Assembly: GCA_964035545.1 (NCBI GenBank)
Contig: OZ037767.1
Location: forward strand, 18,668,759 to 18,728,758
Direction of reading: 5' to 3'
Source: Bugula neritina
Taxonomy: Eukaryota; Bryozoa; Gymnolaemata; Cheilostomatida; Bugulidae
DNA: 60,000 nt
Below are positions 10,446 through 55,141 of the stretch, piece by piece. The position numbers were made by a program, and so were the translations under genes. How positions within the stretch are numbered: position 1 is the stretch's first letter; every line of letters starts with the position of its first letter. Under the pieces are notes generated by a model. That model ran no database searches and was not told the origin of the DNA. It was given only the letters and a program-made list of their open reading frames with translations.

Positions 10446-11659
10446 TTCAACAATTTAGGTACATATAACAATAGTTAATATTTTTTCAATGTACGCTAAA
10501 TGCAGTTTAGCTTGCAGTAATTTTTAAATATTTCTATTTGCATGCTATGCATGTACATCTTCATCTGTGTTTATCAAGATGTGAAAAGACTGATCCTAAT
10601 TGAATATGCAATTTCACAGAATGCATAATCTGCTGGTTAGAAGTGAATTGTAAAGGAATGTCACTTGAAACTTGAGCAGATCTTTTAAAAGACAAACTTT
10701 TGATCGTAGGAAATTCTATACCAGCATAAAAACGTATTTCAATGGGCTAATGAACAAGTTTATATATACTTGACAAGGAGATATACTTGAGGCAACTTTT
10801 ATGTTTTAAAATCAAGCCACAAGTGACTTTCTTTATTAAAACGTTTATAAAATGTATGAAAATGTATATTTTGTTATAACTAAAAACTGGAGTAATAATA
10901 TTCCCTATATATAAATCTATTTAATTTTCAAAGAATTATATTTCTTTAAAAATACTACAACTTGACAAGTTTAGTACTGGCAAAACTTTAGTAATCAACA
11001 AAGATTAAAAAGTTTTAAAATATATGTTTTAAACAGCTTGACTTAGACCCACCTTTCAGATCCACACAAAAATTGGCATTAAATGATTTTCATAGACTGA
11101 TTGTCATTTAAAACTTAATTAGCTTTTAAGTTCCATAGCCTCAAGCCAACATTTCTGCTTTTAAAAGTATTGGAAAATTAGCATTTAATTACAAGAAGGA
11201 AATTGTATTTTGTACAATGCCATGTAAGGCTACTTTCTTGTAATAAAATGTTAGAGTAGTAGATAATATCATTATGAACCTTTTCAGAAACATTTATATA
11301 TCAAAATAAGCGTAGTAATAATTAGTTGTATGTCATTTTAAGAACTCTAAATGTGTTTTTAAAATAATAAGATGGGCAGCCTCTTGTAGCCCATTTAAGA
11401 AAACAATATAGCTCTCACAAATATTGTTATATAGTATGAAAACACAAGTTCTGAAATATTCAGCAATGTGGAAACATGAGTACTCTGGCTACTCCATCTC
11501 TTCATATCTTTGATTTCTCTATAGCTTCTTGATCTTTATACACTTTTGATCTTGTTGCTTCCTTGCAAGTTACAAAACATGTGTTATAGCTGTTGGCGCA
11601 TGGGGCTTGTGACTGTGAGTAGCAGCACATCATGGGAAGAAAGAGGCGGAGCATGTGGC
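10446..11659. other. Intergenic DNA upstream of LU2
   Basis: AT-rich, with no exon or recognised repeat. The last few hundred bases probably include the LU2 control region. Confidence 0.45.
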
Positions 11660-11666
11660 TATATAA
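11660..11666 (+). promoter_or_regulatory. Probable TATA box of LU2
   Basis: TATATAA lies 67 bp before the LU2 start codon at 11733, in a locally GC-richer stretch (GGCGGAGCATGTGGC just upstream). Spacing would put transcription start about 30 bp further on and give a short 5' UTR, similar to LU4-LU8. Confidence 0.55.
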
Positions 11667-11732
11667 TAGACCAACGTAACAGCACAAAGTCAGTAACTTC
11701 GCAAACAGATGTGACAGAGATACAGCAGAAAC

Positions 11733-13956
11733 ATGAAGATCCAACTGACACTTCTCACTTTACTAGTTGGTAGGTAGATTGTATAGATTGTGTATCTTTG
11801 TAAAGCACTAGGTGCATTGCTCCAGATAAACTCCAACACTGTAATAAAAATTTAAAAAATAATATGAGCTGATATACGTGTAGACTTTGTATAGCAAAGT
11901 TTAGAGGACTTCATAATGAGCAGCATAGTCTATTAAGCTTATATTTTAGAAATGTTGTTGAACATTGGTTGTTAAGAGAAATTAATGTTCTTCAAAATGT
12001 TTTCCTAATTGATATACTTGTAACAATTGTATAAAGAGATATTCTTTTGGTAAAGATGTATAGAATGTTGGCTACAATAAACTATTACATACGTATATCA
12101 ACTCAAGTATATACCTATATGTTTATGTTACAGCATCTGTTGCACTGACATATGCCATCAAGTGCTATGAGTGCACCGACTGCGATCCTGTCCCCAGTGA
12201 TGATAATCTGGTAGAATGTGATAAAATTCATAGCAGCTGCTTTGTTACTGAAGGTAACTTTTATCAGTTTTCTTGCTTTTGTTGCATAGCTTAACTAGAG
12301 AAAATATTTGAATCAAATTTTTTAAATCTTTCTGACAAATATGACTTTTTTGCAATTTATTATCTTGTAAACATGCTTATATAGTCCAACATAGTTGAAA
12401 AAATACAGCAGCTCTAATTACTCGCTAAAAATATTATACTTTTGCAGCAACTAAAAACCTGCAGTTAAAAAAATAAATCTTATAAGTAGCATGGTTTATG
12501 ATATTATGTACAATGACTTAATTGAAGCTTACTGTGAATTACATTTCTAATATAACGATATTATCAAACGCATTATAATATAACGTAAACATAATATATA
12601 AGATGTGTAGAAAATGTAGTGTATGAATTATACTGCACCATGATATAATATAGAATACTTCCTTATAATATATGCAGTATACAGTTACAATGTATGTATA
12701 ATTATATAAAACAGTATAGTGTAAAATAAGGTACATGTATATATTCTAATGAATTATAACATATAGTATAATACAACCTGACATATCGGGCTCATAATTC
12801 TCTTTTAGTGACGCATGATGACAACTCAACTACGTACAATAGAGGCTGCAGCTACTCGGGTGCCATCTGGTCAGGTGGAAAATGTGACCCAGAAGTAAAA
12901 TTACCTTTCATCTCAAAACGGAGTTCAAATCTTGATGATACAAGTGCGCTTAGTGAACTTGGAAATTTCAATTTGAGTAGCTTGGGTGAACTGGGAAATT
13001 TCAATTTGAGTAGCTTGGGTGAACTGGGAAATGTTAATTTGAGTAGCTTGGGTGGACTTATTGGTGGACTTGGAAATTTCAACTTGAGTAGCTTGGGTGG
13101 ACTTATTGGTGGACTTGGTAATTTTAATTTGAGTAGCTTGGATGGACTGAGTGGACTTGGAAATTTCAACTTGAGTAGTACAGGTGGACTTGGCGGACTT
13201 GGTAGTTTTAATTTGAGTAGCTTGGGTGGAAATCCTATCAGTAAGCGTAGCTTAAACTTTGGAAATTTCAATTTGAGTAGTTTGGGTGGACTTGGTGGAC
13301 TTGGAAATTTCAACTTGAGTAGTACAGGTGGACTTGGTGGACTTGGAAATTTCAACTTGAGTAGTACAGGTGGACTTGGTGGACTTGGTAGTTTTAATTT
13401 GAGTAGCTTGGGTGGAAATCCTATCGGTAAGCGTAGCCTAAACTTTGGAAATTTCAATTTGAGTAGTTTGGGTGGACTGATTGGCGGACTTGGTGAATTT
13501 GGGAATTTCAACTTGAGTAGTACAGGTGGACTTGGTGGACTTGGAAATTTCAACTTGAGTAGTACAGGTGGACTTGGTGGACTTGGTAGTTTCAATTTGA
13601 GTAGTTTGGGTGGACTTGGTGGACTTGGAAATTTCAACTTGAGTAGTACAGGTGGACTTGGTAATTTTAATTTGAGTAGCTTGGGTGGACTTGGTGGACT
13701 TGGAAATTTTAATTTGAGTGGACTTATTGGCGGACTTGGTGATTTTGGAAATTTCAACTTGAGTAGTACAGGTGGACTTGGTGGACTTGGGAATTTCAAC
13801 ATGAGCAGTATGGGTGCACTTGGTGAACTGGGAAATTTTGATTTGGGTAGCATGGGTGGAATTCTTATGAGTAAGCGTGATGTAAGCGTTGGTAGTTCAC
13901 AAAAGAATTGCTACTGCAAAGAAGATGGGTGTAATGGAAACAACATTGAAGAATAG
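11733..13956 (+). CDS. LU2: secreted LU-domain protein with a giant Gly/Leu-rich repeat loop
   Basis: The spliced model is join(11733..11769, 12134..12253, 12809..13956), 434 residues, with two phase-1 introns as in the other LU genes. The signal peptide begins MKIQLTLLTLLVASVALTYA. The LU fold starts KCYECTDC and continues VEC, SC, RGCSYSG and GGKC. After PFISKR, where finger 3 should close, about 300 residues of repeat intervene. The fold then ends NCYCKEDGCNGNN, so the ten LU cysteines are complete and none lies in the insert. The insert has about 21 units of the type GNFNLSSLGGLGGL, mostly 14 residues (42 nt). Nineteen NLS sequons and one NMS sequon could be N-glycosylated. Lys-Arg pairs occur at ISKR, ISKR, IGKR and MSKR. 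The frame is kept throughout, which argues for selection. A likely poly(A) signal AATAAA is at 14274. Function is unknown; an extracellular matrix, mucus or adhesive role is only a guess. Confidence 0.85.
12952..13860 (+). repeat. In-frame coding minisatellite of LU2 (about 42-bp unit)
   Basis: Units centre on GGAAATTTCAACTTGAGTAG followed by GGTGGACTTGG-type extensions. Unit length varies by whole codons (33-60 nt), and a larger block ending in the GGNPI-S/G-KRSLNF segment occurs twice (about 13150-13270 and 13330-13455). Because all units are multiples of three and lack antisense stops, a long antisense ORF (12852-13853) appears by chance. Confidence 0.95.
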
Positions 13957-16039
<2,083 letters not shown>

Positions 16040-22789: not shown

Positions 22790-23004
22790 TGTAACATATG
22801 CTTTTAAATAAAAATAAATATCATATTATAGTCCATATAATAATTCAAGTCACGGTCAACAATATAATCATCTTATAGAATTTATTAGACAGTAGTTGTG
22901 ATCTCCTTTATCTTATCATTTCATACATTACAATGACATCTAAGGTGTTCAATTTCATCATTAACAAATGGATTCACTATTTTCTCACAGTCATCTCCTC
23001 TTTT
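22790..23004 (-). pseudogene. Truncated LU terminal exon (LU array remnant)
   Basis: The 3' flank (with AATAAATTTGTTG on the minus strand) and the terminal exon of the LU4-LU7 type are present, including GDDCEKIVNPFVNDEIEHLR. A deletion after RCHC and an early stop destroy the last cysteines. The exon is cut at about 23003, just before GDDC, so its RGCSFAP part, exon 2 and exon 1 are missing. At the cut it joins Penelope-like sequence in the same reading frame. It sits where a unit of the array would be expected between LU4 and LU5. Confidence 0.8.
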
Positions 23005-23400
23005 TGCATGTAAGAAAAAGGCTTTATGGTTGTTGAATCTGGTTTTGAACGTAGTTGAACAGATTCCTATGTATGATTGGCTGGAGTTATTGTCATATAT
23101 TGTCACATGCAGTTGCTTGGTAAATTAAGGCTTTGTATAAGCATATAATTTACCATTTAATGGACAGTCGGAAGGTTGTTTACAGTTACATTGTGTGTCG
23201 TTAAGTTTAATAGTGGTAGTAGGAATGTGCGCAGTTTTAAGTTTGTGTTGGTTCGAGCCATCAATAATATTTTTTATGTTGGGCATACATGAGTACATAG
23301 TTTTTATGATCTTCCTATTACAAATTTTTAATATGTTGGCATCTTCACTATATATCACATTTAAAAATTTATAGCTCATGGTACACAGCAATAGCTGCTT
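23005..23400 (-). mobile_element. Penelope-like retroelement fragment (C-terminal GIY-YIG region)
   Basis: The minus-strand translation contains YSCMPNIKNIIDGSNQHKL, then QCNCKQPSDCPLNG and later SYIGICSTTFKTRFNNHKAF. These correspond to the zinc-finger-like CxC...C..PLNG linker and the GIY-YIG endonuclease start of Penelope-like elements. There is one in-frame stop after KLYAYTKP (23125). No reverse transcriptase domain is in the window, so this is a 3'-end relic. Identification is from motif memory rather than a search. Confidence 0.7.
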
Positions 23401-46999: not shown

Positions 47000-48617
47000 A
47001 TATTATCAAAAGTACTTCAGACATGAAAAATTTGCATGGTATGGATTACAACTAACAAATGAGAACGTCAGTAAGCAACTGCTATCGAGAGGGCCGAATG
47101 AAATAAGTTGAATAATAACTACATAGGCTACACAGTTAAGAAAGTGTTCATCCCTGAGGAATGACATGGTCTAAGGTAGTCTAGATTGCTCTATAAGTTT
47201 GTGGAGGGAGTCCTCAATAAACTATAGCTCCCTAGTAGTTGCCAAGATTGGCGAAGGGGGAACCTCTCTTATTTTGCCACTGATATATTGACAATGTAGA
47301 GTCCCGAGAGTGGGAACGCTGGACATGCTGCTTGGCCGAGGTAATATTAGTGTCAGCTCTGTGTAACACCACTCTTGGTAACCACCGAGGAGGGAAGGAA
47401 CGAGAAATCTCTGTCTCCGGCCTCTTATGGTGTGAGAGCCTGAGCATGGTCTTGTTGGCCTTGGTGTTCGCCTGTTTCCTGGGCTTTCTGATTGGCTGGG
47501 CGACCTCCTGAGGTAAGGATTGACGGTGATGAGAACCTTTAACTGCCATCGTGGGTGTACCCACATGATTTAACGTCACTGGGTGATGCGGGCAAAGCTG
47601 GTCAGAGGATGCTAACTTAGCGGGCGATTTCGTCTGATCAGGTTCTGGAACAGGTCCGGGTGGTATTGATGTAAGTCCAGCTTTTACTGCATCGGCATAA
47701 CTCTGAGGCCAGGTATTACAACTCTCCACGTAACCCACCGCTTGGCTCATTAATGTACCGCTTTGTACGCAGTCACACACAAAACCTTGGAGGTAAGGTG
47801 GGGGTTGTCTAGAGCGCTGACCCTTCTCCAAATACGACGGTGCCTTTACAGATGGACTCGAAAGTTCCACGGGTGGGGCTACCGGCTCTGAGATGGATGG
47901 TTCCATACTGACTTCCCCTGGAGCTTCCAAGGTGGGGTTCCTCCCCTCTGTGGGGGTCTCCACCTCCAGGCCCGGCTTGGGTTCTAAAAGTGATGGCATC
48001 AAATCTGGCACTAAAGGTGGTAGACTCACTTCCAGTGGTGGAAGCGGTCGTTCGTCCCTTGTCAGTTCTTCCTCCCGCGGCACGACCACCTTATACTCAG
48101 GTTTGTGCCGCTGCCGCCCGCGCATTGCCGTCTGCCTCTTGGGCTCTAACAGCAAAGGAGCTTCTTTCACCGCATTGGGGCTAGCCCAATGCGGCTTCAA
48201 GCGAGCCTCATTCTGGATAGACACTTGTCCTAAGAGCTCGATTTTGTAGGTATGATTGGGCATCACCTCGACTACTAAATAGCTTAGCCGCTTGTCCACG
48301 ACGCCTAGGGTGGTTGGCCTTCCAAACCCAGTCCCCCACCCAGTAGAGGGGAGGCTCTTCAGTGTCCTTGCTCCGCACCTGTCATTGCTTCTCTTGAGGC
48401 ATTTTGTGTGCAGCCCTCATACGTTCTACCAGTTCACCTACATACCCATGGACAGAGTTATCATGATCAGGAACATGGTAGGCGAGGTGGTCGGGGAACC
48501 GGGTCTCTTGGCCAAGCACTAGGAGGTTGGGAATCTCACCCATACTGGTATGTGGGGTGCTGCGGTATGCCCGCATGACTTGCGGAAGCACCCTATCCCA
48601 TTCCTCCTAACCTGCAG
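47000..48617 (-). mobile_element. Decayed Ty3/gypsy-type retrotransposon fragment (integrase C-terminal part)
   Basis: Reading right to left it starts inside integrase (EEWDRVLPQVMRAYRSTPHT, then GEIPNLLVLGQETRFPDHLA), which is the end of the catalytic core. It continues through YWVGDWVWK to an SH3-like C-terminal module (VEVMPNHTYKIELLGQVSIQ, then NEARLKPHWA) and a Pro-rich tail of about 300 residues ending near 47232. A stop (after MPQEKQ) and a frameshift interrupt it, so it cannot make an intact integrase. Reverse transcriptase, RNase H, gag and paired LTRs are absent. It lies exactly between the two duplicated blocks. Confidence 0.8.
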
Positions 48618-53339: not shown

Positions 53340-53990
53340 ATGAACAAGCTACTTCTACTCGCTCTCTTTGTTGGTAAATTTGCTCTCATTTTTATATAAT
53401 TATTATTTTGTATTTTATTGCTATCTATAGATAAAAAAATTAACTAATTTTTGCTCAAGAAAATTATTTAAGTACTTTACTCCTTTTCATAGCAACTCTT
53501 GCAAGCACAAACGCTATCAAGTGTTACCAATGTACTGACTGTGCAGCTGAAGCTAATGAAGATGATCTGTCTGATTGTGCTAGCTACTTGACTGCCTGCA
53601 TGCTACATCACTGAAGGTAATGCTAGTTTGAATATATCTATAATACTGTACTATAACTATATGTGAGAAACTTCAGGTTTAATGTATAGTTACAAGAAAT
53701 ATGTTGGTATATTTAAGCAATTTACATATTTCAGGTAGTACATGTACAAACATTTTCAATGGGTCCAAGAAAGGTCCTAATTTAAATAAAATGAGCCAGA
53801 TTCAGCTGAAATACTTGTTTTAATTTAAATTTGTCAGCCATGATTTGTTTACTTTGAAATCAATATTTATAGAGCTATTCAAGCATTCAATTAGTTCCAC
53901 CTAATAACATTTATATAGATATCTCTAACAGTCAACTCTAATGAGATAATTTACTAAAAGAAACTTAAGTTTTGAAATAAAGGTTACTAT

Positions 53991-54081
<91 letters not shown>

Positions 54082-55141
54082 CTCTAAAATAAGTGTTTGT
54101 AAACATAATATACATATGCATACCATAACATAAATATGTTGAAAAATAGTGAGGTGTTTCATGTTTCTACTTGTGCAGAAGTAAATGGGGACACTACAAC
54201 CTATCACAGAGGATGCAGTTTTGCCCCAGCCAACTTAGAGGGAGATGATTGTGAGAAAATAGTGAATCCATTTGTTAATGATGGAATTGAACACCTTAGA
54301 TGTCATTGTGATGAAGATGCATGTAATGATAAGATGAAGGAGATCACAACTACCATCTAATAAATTACAGAAGTTGATAATATTGTTGACGATGACTTGA
54401 ATGATTATACTGACTATGATATTTATTTCTATTTAAAATTGCCTAAAATATATTTGTTACATTGCATCTTTCTGTTTCATTCTATCTCACATAATTTCAG
54501 AAATAAGATAAACCTGGATTTCTAATTATAGCATTTTGCATTCATGAAAGCTTAAGATGTTGAATGCAAATCAATTAAAAACTGTGAACTTATTTGTTAA
54601 AAAATAAATAAGTAAGATAATATTTATGATGTAGTTTTAGTTCACTTATAGTCACAGCGTTAGATATAAACATGTATAAGTTTACACATAGCTATTGAAC
54701 TTTATGTTAAACTTAGCTATATATAGTCACCAATCTGATGGACATATATCATAGGTTTCTGAGTTTTACTCTACAGGCTATTATATGTAATTAAATTCTT
54801 GAATAAGCATAGTTTGTTAAAAATCTTATGTGTTTCATATGCATGGTTAATAAGTAAGAAATTTTGCAAAACAAACATTTTTAGTGAATACATATGCATA
54901 CCGTAACATAAATATGTTGAAAAATAGTGAAGTGTTTCATGTTTCTATAACTTGTGCAGAAGTAAATGGAGACACCACAACCTACCACAGAGGATGCAGT
55001 TTTGCCCCAGCCAATTTAGAGGGAGATGATTGTGAGAAAATAGTGAATCCATTTGTTAATGATGGAATTGAACACCTTAGATGTCATTGTGGTGAAGATG
55101 CTTGTAATGATAAGATGAAGGAGATCACAACTACCATCTAA
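53340..55141 (+). pseudogene. LU8: inverted LU copy, frameshifted exon 2, two terminal exons
   Basis: Exons of the LU4-LU7 type are at 53340..53373 (signal), 53493..53616 (exon 2) and two alternative terminal exons, 54179..54360 and 54960..55141. Each terminal exon is 182 nt and open to the normal stop. Exon 2 is 124 nt rather than 120: an extra ATGC after CTGACTGCCTGC-like sequence shifts the frame and gives a stop (TGA) four codons later. The TATA block, donors (GTAAAT, GTAATG) and acceptors (CATAG, TTGTGCAG) look intact. The terminal exons differ slightly (RCHCDEDACN versus RCHCGEDACN), and the 45 bp before each is conserved, so one arose by duplication. It is a recent pseudogene unless the 4 bp are a sequence error. 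It lies 18 kb from the array and on the opposite strand. Confidence 0.8.
53993..54078. repeat. (AT)n microsatellite in LU8 intron 2
   Basis: About 85 bp of pure TA about 100 bp before the first terminal exon. Confidence 0.95.

Follow-up and report, generated by a model that had tools for sequence, protein, structure and literature searches.

A Lys-Arg-bracketed repeat insert in the third finger of a predicted LU-derived protein of Bugula neritina

An LU (three-finger) scaffold is combined with a low-complexity region in C4.4A (LYPD3), where this region is Ser/Thr/Pro-rich, O-glycosylated and located outside the LU domains. The same combination characterizes LU2, the gene described here. GPIHBP1 and SP-10 (ACRV1) also join an LU domain and a long low-complexity segment in one protein. 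Their disordered segment, however, precedes the LU domain and is encoded by a separate exon (PMC6600238), whereas that of LU2 lies inside finger 3, in the last LU exon. The same source gives as general rules of LU domains that an Asn follows the tenth cysteine, that exon boundaries are mostly phase-1, that cysteines pair 1-5, 2-3, 4-6, 7-8 and 9-10 and that the C7-C8 pair stabilises loop 3 (PMC6600238). Single-domain proteins of the QVR/Ly6-uPAR type (PF17064), here the B. neritina proteins EB796_012224 (P0001) and EB796_017848 (P0002), both relatives of genes neighboring LU2, have a signal-like leader, ten ordered cysteines and an Asn after C10. LU2 resembles them in all three respects but carries about 320 repeat residues between C7 and C8. 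We found no LU protein with such a finger-3 loop in the literature searched (titles and abstract starts, with most subscription papers outside the search), in line with the preliminary description, whose author knew of none.

The window, as we call the whole 60,000-nucleotide stretch analyzed, belongs to C3 (chromosome 3) of the B. neritina assembly, in which we searched 215,847,546 bases on 295 contigs. LU2 consists of three exons with coding lengths of 37, 120 and 1148 nt (Table 1). The bounds of exon 3 are exact, with a single open frame leading from the acceptor TCTCTTTTAG to the stop codon. The N-terminal leader MKIQLTLLTLLVASVALTYA is hydrophobic and by eye signal-peptide-like. The product ends in CNGNNIEE, and inspection showed no C-terminal hydrophobic tail; LU2 is therefore predicted to be secreted rather than GPI-anchored. 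The region 11640-12900 is single-copy in the genome, as each of the 18 other matches falls within one stretch of intron 2. This stretch (12548-12786) has copies of 67-78% identity on several chromosomes, some of them clustered (on C7 near 15.708 Mb and on C3 near 14.955 Mb), and looks like an uncharacterised dispersed or satellite-like repeat. About 650 bases past the stop codon, a perfect AC dinucleotide run extends over 511 bases (14611-15121).

Table 1 Features of the LU2 locus, in positions of the window.
Feature	Position	Strand	Remarks
LU2 gene, three exons	11733-13956	+	434-residue product; GT..AG borders; both introns phase 1
TATA-like box TATATAA	11660..11666	+	5′ of start codon at 11733; string match, candidate
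Exon 1, coding part	11733..11769	+	signal-like leader; phase-1 donor GTAGGT
Exon 2	12134..12253	+	end of leader and LU cysteines C1-C5
Exon 3	12809..13956	+	C6, C7, insert, C8-C10, stop
C7	12883..12885	+	residue 78; under the LU rule, first partner in the finger-3 disulfide
KR site 1	12916..12921	+	residues 89-90; upstream edge of insert
Insert, after KR site 1 through KR site 4	12922..13878	+	319 residues; 21 units; core GNFNLSS
KR site 2	13243..13248	+	residues 198-199; ...NPISKR|SLNFG
KR site 3	13429..13434	+	residues 260-261; ...NPIGKR|SLNFG
KR site 4	13873..13878	+	residues 408-409; downstream edge of insert
C8, C9, C10 and Asn after C10	13909..13935	+	CYCKEDGCN
AATAAA	14274..14279	+	sole AATAAA/ATTAAA from stop to 14600; string match, candidate

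Translation of the three exons yields ten cysteines in canonical LU order (residues 23, 26, 29, 41, 48, 66, 78, 420, 422 and 427), so that the earlier statement that LU2 keeps the full set holds. All ten align with those of the neighbors LU1, LU3 and LU4. The tenth cysteine is directly followed by Asn (CNG), and both introns are in phase 1, as the LU rules have it. The domain measures 412 residues from C1 to the end, compared with the 60-90 residues of LU domains, and about 90 when the insert (89-410) is left out; for this reason, we regard LU2 as an LU-derived variant and not as an ordinary LU member. In a search with the QVR profile (PF17064), full LU2 scored 19.9 bits and LU2 with the insert left out exactly 27.3 bits, the value of the cut-off itself. 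The UPAR_LY6 and CD59 models scored below their cut-offs. The relatives P0001 and P0002 reached 28.0 and 24.0 bits with the same profile, and the LU family considered here thus sits at the edge of QVR. Descent of LU2 from the QVR/Ly6-type LU family of B. neritina is the best explanation of these sequence features. The domain reading of the preliminary description, an LU-derived protein with a signal-like leader and an insert between C7 and C8, was right. Comparison with PDB sequences gave no match for LU2 with the insert left out. The best PDB sequence match of the LU family profile was SLURP-1 (E = 4, not significant), and a model of P0001 from a two-sequence alignment had a pLDDT of 40.0 and no usable fold.

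The other LU genes of the window have the short form of the loop. From C7 to C8, LU1 and LU3-LU7 (minus strand) as well as LU8 and LU9 (plus strand) have 16 residues in between, or 13 in the case of LU1, as against 341 cysteine-free residues in LU2. This bears out what had been noted for LU1 and LU3-LU7 and adds LU8 and the C-exon of LU9. Neighboring LU genes have the same exon layout as LU2. We read 11 LU C-exons, eight in the window (LU1, LU3-LU9) and three elsewhere in the genome (one on C7, two on C4), which are also uninserted. Exon 3 of LU2 was compared with its own genome at E ≤ 0.001 and matched only itself, the one match among four candidates. It is unique at this threshold; among LU C-exons, the uninserted form applies to the 11 that we read. 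At E ≤ 0.01, exon 2 yielded 11 genome matches if its own locus is counted, and the best non-self match was 47% identical; the LU4 C-exon yielded 12, on C3, C4 and C7. At the level of exons, QVR (PF17064) had 32 genome matches at E ≤ 1, two of them over the cut-off, and PF00021 had no match in this genome or in 14 controls.

Several members of the array depart from an intact gene. LU8 (53350-54360, plus strand) is frameshifted, its first LU exon containing four additional bases relative to LU7. For LU9 (54854-55141), only the C-exon was found. A partial copy of an LU4-type C-exon (22888-23010, minus strand) contains one in-frame TGA, and judged by these sequences the array contains decaying copies. 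Another LU4-type C-exon, 80% identical, lies about 11 kb beyond the end of the window (C3:18739487-18739648, minus strand). An open frame of 394 codons at 47232-48416 (minus strand) resembles by eye part of a retrotransposon polyprotein.

The inserted part of LU2 comprises about 320 residues, slightly above the 300 estimated earlier. It consists of the 21 cysteine-free, Gly/Leu-rich units between C7 and C8 that the preliminary description had given as an approximate number. The units are spaced 11-20 residues apart, mostly 11, 14 or 15. The loop contains 91 Gly, 71 Leu, 56 Ser, 44 Asn and 25 Phe among its 341 residues; it is mildly hydrophobic (GRAVY +0.19) with few charges and four Pro. In the core, the leading Gly is present in 21/21 units, the first N in 18/21, and F, the second N, L, S and S in 20/21 each. 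There are 14 distinct units among the 21, and the repeat has grown by unit and block duplication. The best explanation of this arrangement is that a Gly/Leu/Asn/Ser repeat grew to about 320 residues in the part of the last LU2 exon that encodes finger 3.

We searched for relatives of the insert and of the gene in several collections. Exon 3 had no match at E ≤ 0.001 in 5.8 billion proteins among the 8000 candidates sharing most words with it, a candidate list possibly crowded by low-complexity proteins. It matched no family in Pfam or NCBIfam. With the insert, no PDB sequence was found at E ≤ 1, and of 124 pattern matches in GTDB contigs none was confirmed. These negatives apply to the protein, Pfam, NCBIfam, PDB, GTDB and own-genome searches and do not show absence from other bryozoans. 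Residues 1-100 of LU2, compared with a protein collection that includes the B. neritina EB796 records, had none of 45 candidates at E ≤ 1, and the gene models of the EB796 draft apparently omit LU2 or break it up. As LU2 was not found among these records, no outside gene model backs it, which counts against every functional reading. The records P0003-P0011 (sources jgi and lgn, probably metagenomes) contain exons closely similar to those of these bryozoan LU genes, some running into apparent introns; public metagenomes may therefore include DNA of B. neritina or a sibling, from which variants of LU2 could be obtained.

We then compared the units at the nucleotide level. Over Leu-Gly and the six-residue core of the 21 units, the first, second and third codon positions departed from the majority base 9, 3 and 37 times, respectively, out of 168 each, so that the third position takes 37 of 49. 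Over the six-residue core, pN/pS was 0.075 in the sense frame and 0.36, 0.76, 0.98, 1.5 and 2.2 in the other five; with Leu-Gly added, it was 0.10 in frame versus 0.31-2.0 in the other frames. In these calculations, stop codons of a given frame were skipped, and the pN/pS and codon-position figures are descriptive and carry no P value, since the units are related by duplication. Over 13 codons including the variable spacer, dN/dS was 0.30; as this figure is weaker, constraint is strongest on the core. The substitution patterns show translation of the plus-strand frame under selection, either now or until a short time ago, and the earlier remark that the reading frame is preserved through the insert stands on the open frame, the third-position bias and the core pN/pS. 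We also considered coding on the minus strand, where an open frame of 352 amino acids crosses the repeat, and rejected it, the lowest antisense pN/pS being 0.36 compared with 0.075 in the sense direction.

Two readings without a role for the repeat have to be weighed against this pattern. The first, very unlikely in our view, is that the repeat is a low-complexity tract without function which expanded neutrally in an LU copy that was itself redundant; this would fit an array with decaying members (the frameshifted LU8 and the C-exon copy with an in-frame TGA), growth by unit and block duplication and the failure to find LU2 among protein records. The low core pN/pS in the coding frame only, the concentration of departures at third positions, an open frame of 394 codons and the retention of every LU cysteine argue against it, as does the fact that LU2 is single-copy and not one of the near-identical copies. 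The second is that the gene model is wrong, the repeat being intronic or misassembled, and that an ordinary LU domain is all that the mature protein contains. A CAG|GT is present upstream of C7, but protein-level constraint in one frame, together with an array of only about 1 kb in an assembly built from HiFi reads with a QV of 53.7 (PMC11480708), makes this explanation barely credible.

A feature that the preliminary description did not mention is the position of the Lys-Arg dipeptides. LU2 has four, two at the edges of the insert and two inside it. BLASTP of P0001 against LU2 gave two blocks, residues 4-88 (37/85 identical, E 3e-20) and residues 411-428 (8/18 identical, E 0.004). The insert hence spans the first to the last KR within a few residues, and its edges are uncertain to that extent, given the shortness of the second block and an overlap of two P0001 residues between the blocks. 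As in a convertase precursor with dibasic sites at its spacer's edges, KR89-90 and KR408-409 are at the ends of the LU similarity. All four arginines of the loop are part of a KR, and 0 of 20,000 shuffles of the loop reached four KR, a figure that overstates the case since sites 2-4 are probably copies and the four sites are not four independent events. Sites 2, 3 and 4 have AGTAAGCGT in common, and the sequences surrounding sites 2 and 3 agree in 114/117 bases. The codons for S-K-R at site 1 are TCAAAACGG. Comparing sites 1 and 2 over K-R-S-x-N, we found a synonymous third-base difference in 4/4 shared codons (AAA/AAG, CGG/CGT, AGT/AGC, AAT/AAC) and different amino acids both at x and in the position following N; the synonymous differences are mild evidence that the dibasic motif was kept.

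The furin rule is R-X-(K/R)-R, which fits 0/4 of these sites. A Gly before KR permits C-terminal amidation and occurs at site 3 alone. LU3 also has a KR in its model (EKRGEE, in finger 2) with no insert nearby; a KR on its own consequently proves nothing and may be due to chance in the LU family. For convertases, the P-domain PF01483 has exon-level matches in the genome, 12/12 of those listed being over the cut-off. Dibasic sites have been proposed in silico for neuropeptide and insulin-like precursors of B. neritina (PMC4990251), and the main text of this paper, the part to which our search applies, contains no words beginning with NFN, LSS, GNF or Ly-6.

We tentatively favor, with a probability of roughly 0.4, the reading that LU2 is an LU-derived secreted precursor whose finger-3 repeat is a spacer cut at one or more of the KR sites. 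LU2 would enter the secretory pathway and fold via its ten cysteines, and proprotein convertases would cut at one or more of the four sites. If all sites were cut, the LU domain would be left with a nick in finger 3 and two chains joined by C7-C8, and the repeat would come free as three peptides of about 109, 62 and 148 residues (KR counted), perhaps partly N-glycosylated. The peptides might serve as extracellular gel, fiber or coating material, or might represent a spacer removed after folding. A more specific form, a two-chain three-finger protein from which the KR-bracketed, glycosylated repeat is excised after folding, in the manner of the C-peptide of proinsulin, so that bulk structural glycopeptides are released, is possible but somewhat doubtful.

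The alternative put forward in the preliminary description is that the insert of about 320 residues remains uncut as an N-glycosylated loop of finger 3, anchored at both ends through the C7-C8 disulfide, and has a mucus-like or surface-coating role. The count of twenty units with an NLS or NMS sequon was correct: the loop has 20 sequons, 19 NLS and one NMS, in 20/21 units, and a further one (NST) is located outside the loop at residue 58. Composition shuffles of the loop had a mean of 8.1 and a maximum of 17 in 5000, although the 20 sequons are not 20 independent events because the units copy each other. N-glycosylation is described as favored by Thr over Ser at +2, by a small nonpolar residue at +1 and, at −2 and −1, by aromatic residues (PMC3248387). 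In the loop, an aromatic F precedes the sequon Asn in 19/20 cases, which is favorable, whereas the +1 and +2 positions of these exclusively N-(L/M)-S sequons are not. Leu reportedly lowers the use of Asn-X-Ser, as ascribed to Shakin-Eshleman in 1996. The sequon is also not singled out by conservation, since its N, L and S are kept in as many units as the F before and the S after it; the selected object may thus be the repeat core as a whole, perhaps a short strand.

We therefore consider N-glycosylation of the loop possible from its sequons, and the claim that this could be among the most densely N-glycosylated stretches of its size must be weakened. The same applies to the mucus-like role: with its mild hydrophobicity, few charges and few Pro, the loop is unlike mucin, even if glycosylation can be entertained. 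A signal-like leader would suit the uncut loop, but a KR at both edges of the insert is unexpected of a permanent one, and together with the sequon type, the equal conservation of adjoining residues and the GRAVY value this renders it unlikely.

A further alternative is a silk-like or gel-forming protein in which short GNFNLSS beta strands stack between flexible GGL spacers, the LU domain serves only for anchoring or as a solubility head, and glycans and cleavage are secondary. It draws on the regular spacing, the alternating polar/apolar hexapeptide and the high Gly and Leu content. A model of the repeat alone places short strands at intervals of about 15 residues in one part of the chain (51-55, 66-70, 81-84), but its mean pLDDT of 42.9 is of low confidence and too low to support a fold. 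Relatives among PDB sequences are missing at E ≤ 1, and N-glycans, if added, would presumably oppose stacking. We judge this organization to be distinctly improbable.

Returning to the cut precursor, the closest analogy is with proinsulin-type precursors, which LU2 would resemble, if its KR sites are cut, in having a dibasic-bounded spacer between disulfide-linked chains. Insulin-like precursors of Bugula have been predicted with dibasic sites between the chains (PMC4990251). The scaffold of LU2 differs from them in being an LU domain, its spacer is a 21-unit repeat and its cleavage is a prediction, and we claim no homology. Excision of the insert, if it takes place, would make LU domains a further kind of scaffold, next to insulin-like ones, that carries a removable spacer. 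If C7-C8 can enclose more than 300 residues and the domain still folds, finger 3 would be a tolerant site for long inserts. The literature on bryozoan larval adhesives, consulted at the level of titles and abstract starts, contained nothing bearing on LU2. Bugula neritina is a well-studied fouling animal, and to our knowledge its secreted adhesive and coating proteins are poorly known. As a single-copy gene whose product has such a composition, LU2 is a direct candidate to localise in B. neritina.
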